64,000 nucleotides of DNA from the NCBI GenBank assembly GCA_949317995.1, contig OX439036.1, positions 23,472,854-23,536,853 on the forward strand, in the 5' to 3' direction. Numbering within the stretch: the stretch's first letter is position 1; each line of letters starts with the position of its first letter. Origin of the DNA: Acholoe squamosa. Taxonomy: Eukaryota > Annelida > Polychaeta > Phyllodocida > Polynoidae. Positions 30 to 37,219 of this stretch are shown here, piece after piece. The notes under the pieces are model-generated. The model was not told the origin of the DNA. It made no database searches and saw only the letters and a list, made by a program, of their open reading frames with translations. A program made the translations under genes and the position numbers.

Positions 30-1973
30 CTAGAGGACGAGCCTATTTTCAATTCCTATACTAATCCTATATAACAGGCGTCGACTATAGTCGACGCTAG
101 GCCTGCCATGGTGTCGACTATAGTCGACGCTAGGCCTACCATGGTGTCGACTATAGTCGATGCTAGCCCTCAATGGGTTAAGGTTGCCATATAGCTCAGA
201 GTGAATTTTTATCACTCTATCTATGGCTGCCTCCAGACCCTCTCCATGCGAAGTCACATAATGCCGGACCATGTCTCCGCGTCGGGGAGTAACACATCCT
301 ATGCATTTAGCACATTTCTTGCCAACTTCTCGATCGCAGACATATTCCGGCCTGTGGTGCATATGAACCTCCATGAGATGACGAAGGAACTCATCTTTCT
401 CGATGAAGAATTCAACCTCACCTTCACTTTGAGTACAACGTTGAAAGGGACAATCCTTGCGATCCTCCCCGTAGTACTTGTCCAGTTCTTGCGAAGCCAC
501 TCCTCCATATCCTCACGCCTTTCACAGGTTATCCGAGGGGGTAGCCTCCATACGGATTTACTCCCCTTCAGGTGTCCCCTGTGAAGAGGAATGAAGTCGG
601 CAAAGTTGCTATTGGCGTTATCCCAGATAGCTGCCTCTTGCTCGTCAGTCAGAGTGGCGTCCACAACTGGGTCAACCGGCTCCTCTCCCTCGGGGTCGGA
701 TGGTACATCCACAGGTTGCACAACAGGTTGTTGACCTGCGAGAACCTGGGCTATGGGATCTTGAGCGTCTCCACTCAAATCGGCCATTACGTTGTGGAGC
801 TTGACGATTGGCACACCGAGCTCAACCTTTACGGTTGGGACAGCCTGTTTAACTTCCGGAGTTTCGGGTTGAATGTCTACCTCGATAGGTTCAGGTTTGC
901 GTTGGTTAACCTTCTTATTCCGTCTGCGGGATCTGCCATTAGTAGAGGTGCCAGGCTCGGATGCATCCGTCTCGTTGCCGGAGACATCCGAAGCCTTAGC
1001 TCCCTTCTTATTGGCCGAGCGTGGGGACACCCGACAGGTTCAGGTACTGTCGGTCACACTCGTGCTGGTAGAGGGTTCGGTTCCTGACCTGCACCAGGTG
1101 GAGCCTCCTCAGGTACTTCTGCTGTATCTCCCAAAGTAGGAGTTTCAGCAGGAGACATGAGACGCTCCATCCGATCAGCCATTTTGGCCGTTACCTGCAC
1201 GGGTGCTGGCCCGGGGACAAGCTCCGGGTGCGCCAGTGCATACTGCCCCTCCAATAGACGTACTAGGAGGTCTTGTATTACCCCGAGTCTGTCTAATGGA
1301 GACACACCAATCCGGGCCTCCTCTGCCACAATGGTTTGAGATCCATGTACCTAGAGACCTTGTCTGCCTTGACACCGGTGTAACCCGTTTTTTCAGACAC
1401 ATAGGAAGGCCTATAGAAGGTATTTCTACGGAAAGCCATTTCTGCGTCCCAGACGGCTTTACGAAACCATAAATGGACTACCAGTCCTTTGGCCATCTGA
1501 TGGTAATCCACCAACCAGGCTTCCGGAAAGGTATTCACCCAATGCGGGTGAGCACATTCCCAGATCGCGTTGACAACACGCTCGTCAACTTGTCTGGGCA
1601 TCCCATAACGGGTGGGTATCAGCATTTCCTCAGAAATAGCCAACATCCGTTCTTCATAGGGACCGGCTACGTCATGCCACTCAGGACTGTCTGGTAGGGG
1701 TAGCTCTAGGTACATTGGCCTGTCAACCAGAGAAGCAGGTTCCAAAGCACCGGATGAGGTACTCCCACTCAGACGAGGCGGTAGTTGAGGGGGAGGTGGC
1801 ATTAGAGCCCTGTCGTGAGACTGAACTCCTGCCAGCTCTCTACTCAAACTTTTGGATGGAGGGGCTACATAAGGCTCACCTACATCAATTGACTGCTGAA
1901 CAATACGGCGTTCAGGACTCACTTGTCTGAAGTTATTGGATGCGTCATAGAACGATTCTATGTCGCTATCGAC
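30..1973 (-). pseudogene. Decayed retroelement-like coding remnant with C2H2-like zinc fingers
   Basis: Read on the minus strand, four open stretches follow one another in different frames: about 1973-1325, 1329-1054 (ends in a stop), 1087-490 and 500-180. Frame changes near 1330 and 490 and stops near 1054 and 1040 show the unit is broken. The last stretch has a C-x4-C ... H-x4-H group and then a canonical C-x2-C-x10-H-x4-H zinc finger. The middle stretch is basic and then acidic/proline-rich, as in a Gag-like or DNA-binding protein. I see no reverse transcriptase, integrase or transposase motif, and the window edge may cut the unit off. It ends directly against TRIM A. The family is not recognised; a retroelement Gag or transposon accessory protein is the best guess. 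It could also be a decayed host zinc-finger gene. Confidence 0.4.
80..174. repeat. 33-bp tandem repeat, 3 copies, each with a 16-bp palindrome
   Basis: Units begin at 80, 113 and 146. Each starts with the palindrome GTCGACTATAGTCGAC, the last one with one change. The 33-bp period equals 11 codons and stays open on the minus strand inside the zinc-finger remnant, giving an 11-residue repeat with the core VDYSRHHGRP. Confidence 0.85.
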
Positions 1974-1997
1974 TGTAGAGGTCGGTGAAAATGTTCT

Positions 1998-2069
1998 TGG
2001 AGAAACCGGGACTCGAACCCGGGGCCCTCCAACTTCGAAGCGGCTGCTCTTCCTCTGAGCTACTTCCCC
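1998..2069 (-). tRNA. tRNA-like gene in TRIM A 3' LTR
   Basis: A 72-nt unit reads as a cloverleaf on the minus strand: acceptor GGGGAAG/TTTCTCC (with wobble pairs), D stem GCTC/GAGC, T stem CCGGG/CCCGG and a consensus B box GGTTCGAGTCC. The A box region (TAGCTCAGAGG) is intact in outline. The anticodon stem is imperfect and the loop reads TTCGAAG (formally anticodon CGA). A run of four T follows 7 nt downstream on the minus strand (plus-strand A run 1988-1991), a Pol III terminator. It is probably not a working translation tRNA. Confidence 0.6.
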
Positions 2070-2382
2070 TTGCCTGACATTTCCACCTTCCATCCACACC
2101 TGGATCGGTATGATACACACTAGGGGGCAGTGATTACCCGGAGACCCGCCCCTGGGGGTCTGCCACCGAGTACAGGGAAATACTGCCCCTACACTCCTCC
2201 CCATCAGCTTCAACCAACACTGCTCCTCCAACCTAACTGCCAGCAGGTGACTAGTTTACCCCTAGCAGGCTGAAGCGTTATCTGTATCATACCGGCCCAG
2301 TTCCCGAGTCCTCAATCGGTCGCGATCACGTTAAGACATGAGCAGGCACACATATCTTTGATCTCATGATTGCGTTAGGATG

Positions 2383-2398
2383 CTCGGTTTCTCCACCA
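2383..2398 (-). promoter_or_regulatory. Primer-binding site of TRIM A
   Basis: On the minus strand TGGTGGAGAAACCGAG begins one base after the 5' LTR end. It starts with TGG, complementary to the CCA of a mature tRNA. The first 14 nt are perfectly complementary to CGGTTTCTCC + A + CCA, the 3' end predicted for the tRNA-like unit in the element's own LTRs. Confidence 0.8.
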
Positions 2399-2423
2399 CT
2401 GTAGAGGTCGGTGAAAATGTTCC

Positions 2424-2495
2424 TGGAGAAACCGGGACTCGAACCCGGGGCCCTCCAACTTCGAAGCGGCTGCTCTTCCTCTGAGCTACTTCCCC
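2424..2495 (-). tRNA. tRNA-like gene in TRIM A 5' LTR
   Basis: This is the same 72-nt tRNA-like unit as at 1998-2069 and is identical to it in sequence. The A box, B box, discriminator A and downstream T4 run are all preserved. In element orientation this copy lies in the 5' LTR, so Pol III would start inside the LTR and stop before its end. Confidence 0.6.
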
Positions 2496-2619
2496 TTGCC
2501 TAACATTTCCACCTTCCATCCACACCTGGATCGGTATGATACACACTAGGGGGCAGTGATAACCCGGAGACCCGCCCCTGGGGGTCTGCCACCGAGTACA
2601 GGGAAATACTGCCCCTACA

Positions 2620-30025: not shown

Positions 30026-30056
30026 TACCTGTGTAGAGGTCGGCGGAAAACGTCTT

Positions 30057-30128
30057 TGGAGAAACCGGGACTCGAACCCGGGACCCTCCAACTTCGAAGC
30101 GGAAGCTCTTCCTCTGAGCTACTTCCCC
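30057..30128 (-). tRNA. tRNA-like gene in TRIM B 3' LTR
   Basis: This 72-nt cloverleaf-like unit has acceptor GGGGAAG/TTTCTCC, B box GGTTCGAGTCC, anticodon loop TTCGAAG and a T4 run 6 nt downstream on the minus strand (30050-30047). It agrees with the TRIM A units in the acceptor, T arm and anticodon loop. Confidence 0.6.
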
Positions 30129-30431
30129 GTCTGACATTCTCTACCTTCCACCTACATCTGGATCGGTATGACACAAGGGGGCAGTGTTCACTGGCTGACC
30201 AGCCCCTGGGGGCTGGTGCTACCAGGGAATGGGGACAGATAGCATACCGCCATGGACTCACAGCCAGAGCTGGCCCCTACACTCCTCCCCACCAGCTTCA
30301 GCCAACCCTACTCCTCCAACCCAACCTCCAGCAGGTGACTAGTTTACCCCTAGCAGGTTGAAGCGTTAACTGTGTCATACCGGCCCAGGTACCGAGTTCT
30401 CGTAGTCCCCCCTCACACGGGTCAGGACCAA

Positions 30432-30447
30432 CTCGGTTTCTCCACCA
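30432..30447 (-). promoter_or_regulatory. Primer-binding site of TRIM B
   Basis: TGGTGGAGAAACCGAG on the minus strand, one base inside the 5' LTR and identical to the site in TRIM A. It pairs perfectly over 14 nt with the CCA-tailed 3' end predicted for the tRNA-like units in the LTRs. Confidence 0.82.
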
Positions 30448-30472
30448 GTGTAGAGGTCGGCGGAAAACGTCC

Positions 30473-30544
30473 TGGAGAAACCGGGAATCGAACCCGGGAC
30501 CCTCCAACCTGCAGGCGGAAGCTCTACCGCTGAGCTACATCCCC
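30473..30544 (-). tRNA. tRNA-Cys-like gene in TRIM B 5' LTR
   Basis: This is the most canonical of the four tRNA-like units: GGGGATG acceptor, A box TAGCTCAGCGGTAGAGC, anticodon loop CTGCAGG (anticodon GCA, Cys), B box GGTTCGATTCC and a T4 run downstream (30467-30464). The CTGCAG loop is typical of tRNA-Cys. It differs from the partner LTR's tRNA at eight positions, four of them in the anticodon loop. Confidence 0.65.
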
Positions 30545-30699
30545 AGACCTGACGTTCTCTACCTTCCACCTACATCTGGATCGGTATGACACAAGGGGGC
30601 AGTGTTCACTGGCTGACCAGCCCCTGGGGGCTGGTGCAACAGGGGAACGGGGACAGATAGCATACCGCCATGGACTCACAGCCATAGCTGGCCCCTACA

Positions 30700-32790
30700 C
30701 CTGTTTCGATCCCGCGCCCATTGCCTTTTGAATTAAACTCGAGTAATTATTTTTTTCAATGAATAGCTCTGCATTCTGTAAACTCAGTTGTAAAAATCAA
30801 TTTTCTCAAAATATTTCTAGGCACAAAAGGGTTAAGTAAGTCTGGATGGTAAAGTATATGTTGTTAGTTTATCTAAAGTATTAAAGTTATCGGGGATGCT
30901 TGTGCCAACAAGCACTTGCCCACATACAAGGCACTTCAGTGTCTGTATCCACTTATCAATAGCCAACTCATCGTCCCATCAGTTAATAGATGGGGGCATG
31001 TGTACGGAAAACAGCTACCAGTAGGTTATTACTTAATGGATGTCAAAATATGGAAACCTGGTCTTGATGAGGGTCAGAGAGTATGTGTTTTTACTAGCTA
31101 ACATGAATGGACCAAAGATCCCTTCTCTGCCTCTTGTCTCCTATATTGACTGCTTCTCAAGGCAGGATGGCATAAATGCCTCCTGAGTCCTGTCGGGCCA
31201 GGCCATGCAGGTTTCTTTCTACCTGTAGACATTTGCAGTGATAGGTAAAGTTAGTAGGCTTAAATAAGGAGCCTAATGATCATAATATAACCAACCAAGT
31301 TCTTATACATGATAATTCATGTGGCTGCACTCTATCTAACAGACTGGGATAAATTATATGGTTTGAATCCTATTTATTTAGATGGAGTCGATCTTGATAT
31401 ATGTCTTTTAACACATCAGGGATGGAGAACGATTGCACACGGATTTATGTAGATAACACGGTCGCCTGAATTGAGCACATTTATACCCACTGCCTCCACT
31501 CATGATGTGCACATGACTTAATGCATATATCGTGCCTATATGCATAATACCTATGGATAGTTCCGGATCAAGCCGGTCCTCTGATATGATGGACGCAGCA
31601 TGCCACCTGTGGAGGTAGTTTCATTCTCTACAGTCAGCTTAACCTAGACCCTGTATTACTTGCCAAAAACCAACTCTGGACAATGCTACGCCAGTGTAAT
31701 GCACGTACCTGGAACTGTATTTGATATAGTTATAAAGGATATAATATATAATGCAGTATGTTTCCTTTAAGGAATCCACTTAAGGCTATAAATTGTACTT
31801 GGCAGCATGCATTCCTGTAGCTGCAGTGCATACATGCGATCAGAGAATCGAAAGGAGTTGTCTGAATAGCATTTGATTGAATTCAATTGATAATCTACCT
31901 TTGTCCCTTAACATAACTGGCATTATATCTGCCTATAGGTTATCATCATCATACTCGTCATTGGTCATTAATTCTTAAAATCGACATGTGACATGGGCCT
32001 CAGTGACTTGAGGCAAAATTTAGTAACATGTGCTTTCTTAAATTTGACATGGGACATGGTAGGACGAGTTGGGATCTAAGTGACCAGGCATGGGATTCTT
32101 CCAGAAATTCGGAAATTTGAAATTCAAAAGGTCACTTTTGTGACTTGCACAGATCCACTTAGAAAATATTTTAACATTGATGGGGGGGGGGGGGGGTCTT
32201 AGATGTTTGAAGGGCCTCATTCCATAAAATCACTCTCAAAATACCACCCGGAAGAGGAATTTAATCACCCTCTTGGATATTTCTTCGAACCCCTGAGTGA
32301 CATATGACATGAGAATGTTTCTAAATCGACATGTGACATGGCCCCCCTGCCCCATGCAAGACCACCTTATTTATACAAGGGGTTGAAATTGAGAAAAGGA
32401 TGACACTGAAAACAACACTTACACTACCTTATACCCCAGGCCTAACCACCACGATCAGATGGGCATGGGAAGTAGGTCGTGAGATTGCCAAAGTAACCCA
32501 ATGCCTCAGGCCATTTTTAAAGGTATTATTATTATCATCATTTTGACAGCTTGTCTGACCTTGTTCAAGGTGCATGACCTAAGTTTATTAAGGTCACAAC
32601 CTTCCTCTTCTCAGAATAGAGGACTAAGTTTTCATTCTTGATTTATGTACTCCATTGGCCTTTGCCTTTCCTTATCTGCTTATCGAATATGTACCGCGTT
32701 CTTTCAGTAAAACTCAGGGTCTAAGAAAGTATATTATCCAGGAAAAGTCAATGAAATAAAATGCGAGATTATTTTGCAGGAACCATGGTC
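30700..32790. other. No gene seen; GACATG-rich repeat at 31975-32065 and 32295-32345
   Basis: Unique AT-rich DNA. The two GACATG-rich patches (TTAAAATCGACATGTGACAT and relatives) belong with the 51-bp minisatellite family. A poly-G run lies near 32180. Confidence 0.45.
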
Positions 32791-34735: not shown

Positions 34736-37219
34736 ATGGAGCAGCAACAGCGACGACGCAGTGCTCGGCTCAACAAGGGGGCCTCAAACGGTTCCTCATC
34801 TAATGGACACCATGCAGGAGGTTCTCCAGAACCTAAGAAGTACAGTTTTCTCTACAACCACTTCAACTTCACCCTGGTGCCAGCCTTCCTCATCAGCACC
34901 TGTCCCAATGCAGTTATCCTTCTGTGGTATACGGCCGTGCACTGTGATGGCAGCTTCTTAGCATTAGGCCAGGAACTCTTAAGGAAGGGCATATTCACTG
35001 GGATCGTCCATATCTGGTCCCAAGTGAATTTCTTCTCCCCACTGGCTCTAGCTGTGCTGGGGGTATATTGCCTCTTTGCACTTATCCTCCAAGTGAGCCT
35101 ACCTGGCCCCACTGCCTATGGGCCTCTCACATCCAAGGGTAACACACCTGTGTATAAGGACAATGGCTTTTTCTGCTATGTGGTTACAATAGCTGCCTTT
35201 GGAGTGCTCACCTACGTGCTGAAACAGCGTGGTATGACACCAACCATCGTCTATGACCACTTTGAGGAGTTCCTTGGCACCTTGACTGTTGTTAGCATGA
35301 TCCTATGTGTTGGGCTCTACTTCAAAGGATTGCTAGCCCCTTCTAGCACAGATTCAGGATCTTCAGGTAACCCCATCTTCGATTACTACTGGGGCACAGA
35401 GCTGTACCCACGTATTTTTGGAGTGGACGTCAAGGTATTTACCAACTGTAGGTTTGGGATGACCGTGTGGCCTCTTCTCGTCCTCATCTTCAGCATTAAG
35501 AGTTATGAGATTCACGGTTTCGTGGACAGTGCCTGGGTGTCATGTGTGCTTCACTTTGTCTATTTCACCAAGTTCTTCTGGTGGGAGAATGGCTACATGG
35601 GCACCATTGACATCATGGTAGACAGGGCTGGATACTACATCTGTTGGGGCTGTATGGTGTTCATCCCTGGGATGTATGCTGTGACCAGTCTGTACCTTGT
35701 TAACCACCCAGTTCATCTTGGTGTCCCCCTCAGTGTTGTTATACTCGTCCTGGGATCAGCCTCCACCTGGATCAACTACTGGGCAGATCAACAGAAGCAA
35801 AAGGTGGGTCAATACATTAATGCTATATTTTCTTATATCCTTGAGAGTAATGTACTTGCTAAAGTAAAATTTACTAAGGTTTCCAAAAAAAGTCGTGTGT
35901 TTTATGTAACATGCTGGAAAAAGATTAGGTAGGGTAGGTCAGTTTCCTTTTCTGATTTGGGATTTTTAACTGCTATAAGGACACACGACAAGTCACGGTG
36001 ACTCACAGTGACACATGGGAGACTAAATTGACTAAAGAAAATCACCAAAAATGTATTATTTCTTCAAGAATAGAGCACTAGGTAGGGTTGGATGAGGTGA
36101 AACAACGTTTTTGGGGCCTTACGTTAATTTTCAAACGCCATCTTGGCCTTATTGATCAATGTGGTTTGATATGAATTGGATGCCTTTTATGGGCTATATT
36201 TAGAAATTGGAAGCCATATTTTCACATGAACTATATGTAAAATACAATGCATGTAATGTAGATTGAATAGTTGTATCATGGACCTTGATGCACTGTATAA
36301 TGGGTGTGGACCACTAAATTTGACATGGTGACATGGCTATTTCTTAAAATCGACAGGTGACATGGGCGTTAGTGACATGAAGCAAAAAATTAGTGACATG
36401 ACATAGGTGTTTTCTTAAATTTGACATGGGACATGGTAGGCTCTTAGAGGTGACATGGGACATGGGGATTTAAGTGACATGTGACATGACCATTTCTTGA
36501 AATCGACATGTGGCATGGGGGACCCCCCATCCACACCCCCTGTATAGTATTACAGTATGTAAACTACGGGGTGGCTCCCTGGTGAGTAAGGTAGTAGATA
36601 GGATCTACGCAAACGGCACCTGGTGGCAAAAAATGTAAGCACCAACTTACATGGCATAACCCATCTTCTCACAATAGTGATCTTAGAAGCTGTATACTGC
36701 CGTTATATGCATCCAATTCAGCTGATTGTTCAACAAACATAGACTTTGTAAACCAATGTCTGCAATGAAAAAACAGATGGTCTGATCGGGGCGTGGTTGA
36801 TCTTTCTGTAATAACTTGAAAGGATTGTCTGAAATGAACAATCTACAAATAATTCAAATTTTCTATTCCAGGTCCGAAGTACAAAAGGCAACTGCACCAT
36901 CTGGGGTCGCAAAGCGGAGGTTATCCGCGCCCGTTACCGGCTGGACACAGGAGAAGAGCGTGAGTCGCTCCTTCTGCTCTCTGGCTGGTGGGGAGTAGCT
37001 CGCCACTTCCACTATATCCCTGAGCTGGCCCTGGCCTTCTTCTGGTGCCTCCCTGGGCTGTTTGAGAATGTGATGGCCTACACCTATTTCCTGTGGCTGT
37101 GCATCCTTCTCACACATCGCACCTTCAGGGACGATGTGAAGTGTGGCAATAAGTATGGCAAATACTGGGAGGAATACTGCTCCAAGGTACCATACAAGAT
37201 GATACCCTATGTGTTTTAA
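34736..37219 (+). CDS. DHCR7: 7-dehydrocholesterol reductase, two coding exons
   Basis: An ER-membrane sterol reductase that reduces the C7-C8 double bond of 7-dehydrosterols with NADPH, the last step of the Kandutsch-Russell route. Exon 1 is 34736-35803 (residues 1-356) and ends AAG/GTGGGT. Exon 2 is 36872-37219 (357-471), after TTCTATTCCAG, phase 0. The start sits in ACCATGG. Length 471 aa matches the family (about 430-475). Residues 6-15 form a basic stretch RRRSARLNKG, and several membrane helices follow. Family signatures are GNPIFDYYWGTELYPRI (211-227), SGWWGVARHFHY (393-404) and THRTFRDD...KYGKYW near the C terminus, ending in IPYVF. Wording such as FTNCRFGM, TKFFWWE, RAGYYICWGC and LVNHP is closer to plant DWF5-type enzymes than to the vertebrate protein. 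Lamin B receptor and TM7SF2 are relatives but fit less well. Confidence 0.93.
35804..36871 (+). other. DHCR7 intron, with GACATG-rich repeat
   Basis: 1068-bp GT-AG intron. Reading from exon 1 continues open for about 42 codons into it, without meaning. 36340-36520 is a GACATG-rich repeat related to the minisatellite at 12.9 kb. Confidence 0.8.

Follow-up and report, generated by a model that had tools for sequence, protein, structure and literature searches.

LTR-encoded tRNA units and primer-binding sites match class by class in a Helenus-like TRIM family of Acholoe squamosa: a candidate case of self-supplied primers

In a family of short LTR elements from the polychaete Acholoe squamosa, the 3' end of a tRNA unit lying within the LTR is exactly complementary to the primer-binding site (PBS) of the same element, and this match recurs in five different sequence classes. 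Judged from the sequences, it is likely (probability about 0.75) that the element supplies its own tRNA primer for reverse transcription. By its element features and the published description, the family appears to be a Helenus with self-matching primer sites.

Two Helenus-like TRIMs, elements A and B, are located on the minus strand of the window, which here denotes the whole 64,000-nt stretch analysed (C2:23472854-23536853 of a 1.48-Gb assembly). Their features, in window coordinates, are the following.

30032..30699, minus strand: TRIM element B, whole, 668 bp, with TG...CA ends, an LTR pair identical at 233 of 249 positions, a 4-bp target-site duplication (TSD), a PBS and a polypurine tract (PPT); the 5' LTR lies on the right and the 3' LTR on the left
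30028..30031, minus strand: element B TSD copy 1, CAGG
30700..30703, minus strand: element B TSD copy 2, CAGG
30449..30699, minus strand: element B 5' LTR, 251 bp, with its end ...CTCTACA at 30449
30032..30281, minus strand: element B 3' LTR, 250 bp
30473..30544, minus strand: element B 5'-LTR tRNA unit, anticodon loop GCA, 3' end CCCGGTTTCTCC-A (Rfam RF00005, 50.5 bits; ARAGORN; sequence)
30057..30128, minus strand: element B 3'-LTR tRNA unit, anticodon loop CGA, 3' end as in the 5'-LTR unit (ARAGORN, Rfam)
30464..30467, minus strand: TTTT, presumed Pol III terminator, 5 nt past the element B 5'-LTR tRNA unit (sequence)
30432..30447, minus strand: element B PBS TGGTGGAGAAACCGAG (30447..30432 on the minus strand), of which the 14 nt at 30434-30447 pair with the LTR tRNA 3' end plus CCA
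30282..30293, minus strand: element B PPT GGTGGGGAGGAG, abutting the 3' LTR
1974..2619, minus strand: TRIM element A, of a second subfamily, with PBS and tRNA end as in element B and no target duplication
2383..2398, minus strand: element A PBS TGGTGGAGAAACCGAG
2424..2495, minus strand: element A 5'-LTR tRNA unit (ARAGORN, Rfam)
1998..2069, minus strand: element A 3'-LTR tRNA unit (ARAGORN, Rfam)

In element B a single base (C, 30448) separates the end of the 5' LTR from the PBS, and no ORF of at least 110 amino acids overlaps the element; element A has LTRs of 220 bp and a PPT similar to that of element B. The original prediction was confined to positions 30432-30544, a span that does hold the PBS and the 5'-LTR tRNA unit, but the whole element extends from 30032 to 30699 with its 4-bp TSD. 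A tRNA unit of 72 nt was identified by ARAGORN and Rfam in all four LTRs of the two elements, always in the element-sense orientation; Rfam matches in the window were to tRNA only, and no 5S rRNA was found in the window LTRs. Between the two LTRs of element B, identity is 89% in the tRNA unit and 96% in the stretches that flank it, a contrast suggestive of recombination between two subfamilies. Among the open frames of the window, those beside or under element A (30-2231, minus strand; e.g. 299-1030 and 1293-2231) had no Pfam match at an E-value of 0.01, and a 398-aa frame at 34736-35932 on the plus strand matched the ERG4/ERG24 sterol reductase family (Pfam PF01222, E 2.3e-35).

The tRNA 3' end CGGTTTCTCCA of element B, extended by CCA, pairs with TGGTGGAGAAACCG over 14 nt without gaps, and CGGTTTCTCC plus A plus CCA likewise forms 14 consecutive pairs with TGGTGGAGAAACCG. 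Within the whole window TGGTGGAGAAACCG occurs twice, namely as the PBSs of elements A and B, and on the minus strand CGGTTTCTCCA is confined to the four LTR tRNA units. The 14-nt pairing with the tRNA 3' end, discriminator A and CCA, first noticed in element B, was thus borne out in both elements. None of the four units is followed by an encoded CCA, so that only a CCA-tailed molecule would fit the TGG in the PBS, in agreement with the earlier suggestion that TGG points to a CCA-tailed primer. Beyond these 14 nt, an A of the PBS stands mismatched opposite C62 and is followed by a G paired with C61; the PBS base opposite tRNA position 62 is mismatched in nearly all junctions that were read. The PBS tail is CCGAG in all five classes, with the LTR units reading mostly CCCGG, and it may have been left over from an earlier primer tRNA.

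Five acceptor classes, each accompanied by a fitting PBS, were distinguished: TTTCTCC-A (the main class), TGTTTCC-A, TGTCTCC-A, TGATCCT-A and TTTCCCT-A. For scoring, 120 loci (L029-L148) were reduced to 103 distinct junctions, 98 of which had a recognisable T-arm (the other 5 were dropped), and the acceptor 3' strand plus discriminator was compared with the eight PBS bases behind TGG. The match was complete in 69 of the 98 junctions, 7/8 in 15, and 6/8 or lower in 14, several of these poor matches looking like LTR ends joined to unrelated sequence or like rearranged copies. The complete matches comprise 49 of tRNA end TTTCTCCA with PBS TGGAGAAA, 9 of TGATCCTA with TAGGATCA, 6 of TGTTTCCA with TGGAAACA and 5 of TGTCTCCA with TGGAGACA. 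One chimeric junction, L140 (an element also represented by L086), combines a main-class tRNA with a TGTTTCC-type PBS. With the relatedness of copies left uncorrected, the mean match was 7.23 of 8 bases as against 6.16 when PBSs were shuffled among junctions, and the highest of 2000 shuffles reached 6.54.

The same association is apparent in the genome at large. The main tRNA end followed by its fitting PBS was found at 750 sites and at none in the reversed control, so the main pairing is not due to chance, and a chance match was ruled out in general by such site counts with reversed-pattern controls. The main tRNA end preceded the PBS of three other classes at just 5 sites. A joint pattern for the TGTTTCC, TGTCTCC and TGATCCT ends with the four-class PBS, in which mismatches among these three classes go uncounted, gave 102 sites, 4 of them with the main PBS. 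Fisher's test on the resulting table (750/5/4/98) yields p = 4e-117 for sites that are not independent of one another. As the copies are related, the real weight lies in the five classes being matched at every base in which they differ; moreover, tRNA end and PBS are about 25 nt apart and can move as a block, so that the independent evidence is the number of classes and not the number of copies.

Two of the classes were anticipated from their primer sites. The PBS TGGTAGGATCACCG predicted a tRNA ending in TGATCCT-A before that tRNA was read, and this end was confirmed in 9 of 11 such loci, 5 with the exact CGGTGATCCTA and 4 with one T-stem base changed; the remaining two, L136 and L138, have no 5'-LTR tRNA unit. 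Similarly, the PBS TGGTAGGGAAACCG predicted the tRNA end CGGTTTCCCTA of the fifth class, and ends of this kind had first appeared, unplaced, in a genome pattern search. For this class, which is represented by counts only, CGGTTTCCCTA lies just upstream of TGGTAGGGAAACCG at 75 sites compared with 0 in the reversed control, and in a wider PBS set covering all known classes the fitting PBS accompanied it at 75 of 77 sites. The acceptor 5' strand GGGGATG occurs together with TTTCTCC (in element B), TGTTTCC and TGTCTCC, and, being common to three classes, it indicates that the PBS tracks the acceptor 3' strand, the strand that a primer would offer. By computed primer-end/PBS duplex energies, the fitting pair is better by several kcal/mol in the majority of combinations, except that the TGTTTCC end binds the TGTCTCC site equally well through G-U pairing. 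The proposal that the element may supply its own primer thus gains support from five classes, some of them one or two bases apart, each with an exactly complementary PBS. The simpler alternative offered alongside it, in which the LTR merely captured the host primer tRNA, fared worse, as capture alone predicts one tRNA and one PBS where five are seen.

In four classes, ARAGORN folded the two most frequent LTR units of each into cloverleaves with a closed seven-pair acceptor stem and with D and T arms; a mismatch occurs at the foot of the anticodon stem in the main and TGTTTCC classes, and in the 5'-LTR unit of element B, with its 5' strand GGGGATG, acceptor pair 6 is a U-U mismatch. Unconstrained minimum-energy folds of main-class units are mostly not cloverleaves. 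The anticodons vary (CGA, GCA, TGC and GTC), and by ARAGORN isotype one class was called Ala and one Asp. A TTTT lies within 20 nt downstream of 159 of the 161 units with intact ends, and among 80 trailers it persists in 79, with variable bases on either side. The tRNA bodies resemble, and seem to derive from, ordinary tRNAs of Ala-like and Gln/Asp-like type.

This resemblance is among the points that favour a host source, according to which the primers belong to the host tRNA set, the LTR units are captured or gene-converted copies serving as Pol III promoters only, and the match between unit and PBS reflects their common source. The misfit between the PBS tail CCGAG and the CCCGG of the LTR units could also indicate another tRNA as the primer. 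Whether a host tRNA matches the site equally well or better, the point on which the original prediction turned, was addressed by a pattern search. This search, for a T-loop with CTCGG and a general-type end behind it, gave 50 places in the genome, 40 of which carry ends of the five classes (24 TTTCTCCA, 5 TGTTTCCA, 5 TGTCTCCA, 1 TGATCCTA and 5 TTTCCCTA). With T at position 62, these 40 places reach a 16-nt fit to their own PBS and so exceed the fit of C62-bearing LTR units. Hence 16-nt fits do exist, but all of them bear LTR-class ends, and two, out of three such places on C2, are tied to elements: the first is contained in a 5' LTR, and the second follows a main-class junction about 0.7 kb further downstream, somewhat more than the 0.4-0.6 kb spacing of LTR units in the elements read. 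The 40 places are scattered over the classes and over T-loop variants in the manner of stray LTR-unit variants, and they may be C62T variants of LTR units.

A further ten T-arm/acceptor ends (nine TTATCCTA, one TTATCCCA) are arranged in tandem with a period of about 1.3 kb at C1:64905932-64921839, an array that may be non-LTR and is possibly a host tRNA array; its ends (nine ..CTCGGTTATCCTA, one ..CTCGGTTATCCCA), however, mismatch every PBS class seen and give a full fit to none. A host source would in addition require five host tRNAs, three of them differing by one base, and we know of no ordinary animal tRNAs with these five acceptor ends. Taken with the points in its favour, a host source of the primers is considered unlikely. 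Five places of the same pattern search, which may lie within or outside LTRs, read CTCGGTTTCCCTA and would fit the fifth PBS over 16 nt.

It is also conceivable, with a considerably smaller probability, that the LTR tRNA and the PBS pair with each other within the genomic RNA, as a hairpin or as a contact between genome ends, and covary for a reason other than priming. A single RNA would contain CGGTTTCTCCA and the PBS at a distance of about 25 nt, and the two could fold into a hairpin of 11 bp; an inverted duplication in L092 joins them at exactly that homology. Such pairing in cis needs no TGG, however, and yet the PBS begins with TGG, the complement of the unencoded CCA; the site directly behind the LTR is, furthermore, the position of a PBS. 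The L092 duplication is one of two foldback joints (L092:354 in the TTTCTCC class; L148, minus strand, 1085, in the TGATCCT class) in which LTR tRNA, CCA and antisense U5 follow one another. In L092 the inverted arm of 227 nt is identical to the element's own LTR and continues into the PPT, and in L148 the antisense piece is short. Both joints carry the tRNA's base at position 62, consistent with a nascent strand that stopped short of this position, though two cases are few. As proof of a CCA-tailed primer these joints were rejected, because template switching within the 11-14 nt of shared sequence also accounts for them; the CCA of the joint could derive from the PBS complement, so that the joints are compatible with primer extension.

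Mosaic elements indicate that tRNA units have been swapped as modules between LTR backgrounds. In L062 and L097 the main tRNA is set in a TGTCTCC-class background comprising U3, U5 and the internal part, and yet the PBS is main-class; the stretch from tRNA to PBS and the sequence behind the PBS are of the background type. These two cases are lightly weighted, as the PBS difference amounts to one base. In L129, L145, L039 and L049, one class accounts for tRNA, U5 and PBS and a different one for U3 and the internal part, with the changeover just behind the PBS, where a strand transfer between two templates could fall. That PBS and LTR tRNA were matched once, by origin in a single past capture, and then inherited as a functionless linked block is barely credible: the two do adjoin and travel together in chimeras such as L129 and L145, but five matched pairs are left unaccounted for, at least about 7 matched base changes would be required, and a single capture with linked inheritance is ruled out by the five matched classes. 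An attempt to date the class switches with a U3 tree (143 columns, 83 rows) was abandoned: the classes intermingle across U3 backgrounds (5 groups, 15 changes), and 44 of 78 forks are open; given this poor resolution and the possibility that tRNA and PBS form one block, the switches were not counted as independent.

The supply of the primer by the element itself could be accommodated in a fuller scheme, to which somewhat better than an even chance is given, in which a Pol III unit with a leaky terminator yields both primer and template, and copying of the primer keeps unit and PBS matched. Pol III would initiate at the LTR tRNA unit, and most transcripts would end at the adjacent TTTT, to be trimmed and CCA-tailed in the manner of a tRNA. 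Some transcripts would pass this short terminator and reach the TTTT of the 3' LTR, providing the genomic RNA. The CCA-tailed LTR tRNA could then anneal to the PBS over the 14 nt whose pairing is seen in the sequence, and would prime a reverse transcriptase borrowed from an autonomous element. If the retroviral rule applies, plus-strand strong-stop DNA would copy the end of the primer, so that the PBS of the new copy is rewritten to its own LTR tRNA, and such rewriting would keep the match through mutation of the acceptor stem or a swap of tRNA modules. The chief problem for such a scheme is the constant mismatch at position 62, which an 18-nt primer copy would erase. Copying may come to a halt within about 14 nt; otherwise the primer, or some further constraint, must differ at that position, and the 40 T62 places with their 16-nt fit are in line with a primer that differs there.

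The family is numerous and appears to have been active until recently. The LTR end, one free base and TGG gave 1127 matches in the genome compared with 140 for the reversed pattern, and a second pattern, in which the main PBS was excluded and the tRNA left free, gave 282 sites with 9 in the reversed control. The sample of 148 loci consisted of 8 from a DNA search, 20 around its best matches (partly overlapping), 30 and a further 60 from the LTR-end/TGG pattern and 30 from the second pattern, and a script detected 62 complete elements of 574-819 bp in it. Identical flanks of 4 bp surround 44 of these 62 elements and identical flanks of 5 bp none, against a mean of 1.5 and a maximum of 7 with shuffled flanks; the 4-bp TSDs argue for insertion of the integrase type. 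With gaps ignored, LTR divergence is 0.0% in 17 of the 62, which points to recent activity. Adjacent, tandem or nested TRIM copies were observed at L025, L026, L032/L033, L087 and L111 and recall the tandem arrays of Cassandra. An autonomous partner sharing the PBS was sought among 47 sites with the four-class PBS after CA, behind an LTR lacking the usual first C of CTCTACA. A recurrent group with ..ACTACA ends accounts for 11 of these 47 sites, and in 10 of the 11 a tRNA unit lies upstream, so the group represents further TRIMs and not an autonomous partner; none was found among these PBS-sharing sites, 11 of the 47 having been examined.

With Helenus as described in the available text of Kojima 2024 (PMC10886601), the family shares TRIM size, an LTR tRNA-derived unit with boxes A and B (both present here, the boxes being named as in that paper), PBS and PPT, the absence of coding capacity and, with animal Helenus, 4-bp target duplications. 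In the same text, Helenus PBSs fit host tRNAs, or in fungi their anticodon loops, complementarity between the LTR tRNA-like sequence and the PBS is stated not to have been found, and self-priming is rejected. Unlike Helenus as reported there, the present family shows an exact 14-nt complementarity with covariation across five classes, and those class representatives that were drawn have closed acceptor stems. Among the matches listed for prior work on a self-encoded tRNA primer, only this paper was noticed on the point, and it is opposed. Cassandra, in the accessible part of PMC7215508, is likewise a TRIM with an independent Pol III unit and terminator in the LTR, and the transcription logic is likely the same; it contains 5S rRNA where the present family has tRNA, and its PBS TGGTATCAGAGC is described as typically tRNA-complementary.

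Tf1 primes in cis with the 5' end of its own mRNA. Self-priming LTR elements of the Tf1 type are named in the consulted part of PMC6934838, and as in these elements the primer here would come from the element rather than from a host tRNA; unlike in Tf1, a tRNA that the LTR encodes and that is CCA-tailed is the candidate. The biv-TRIM of bivalves is also a TRIM of marine invertebrates, which, as far as the same part of PMC6934838 goes, lacks an identified canonical PBS and any description of a tRNA unit in the LTR. In HIV and SIV, the primer that was used dictates the PBS sequence of the progeny, according to the portion of PMC4549124 at hand, a rule that would yield the observed covariation if the LTR tRNA is the primer. 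The retroviral primer there differs in being a host tRNA of which 18 nt are copied, as against about 14 here.

LTR elements and retroviruses are taught as being mostly primed by host tRNAs. If the present reading is true, a primer gene of its own would remove an element's dependence on host tRNA and account for a full tRNA, beyond a promoter, being kept in some LTRs. It would contradict the sole published statement found on this point for the Helenus group, as given in the available text of PMC10886601. With more than 900 tRNA-PBS junctions in one genome (750 + 102 + 75), such units could inflate genome tRNA counts with many false genes. The primer would be decoupled from the host tRNA pool, with several primer 'dialects' in one genome, and the family would constitute a natural experiment on the co-evolution of PBS and primer.
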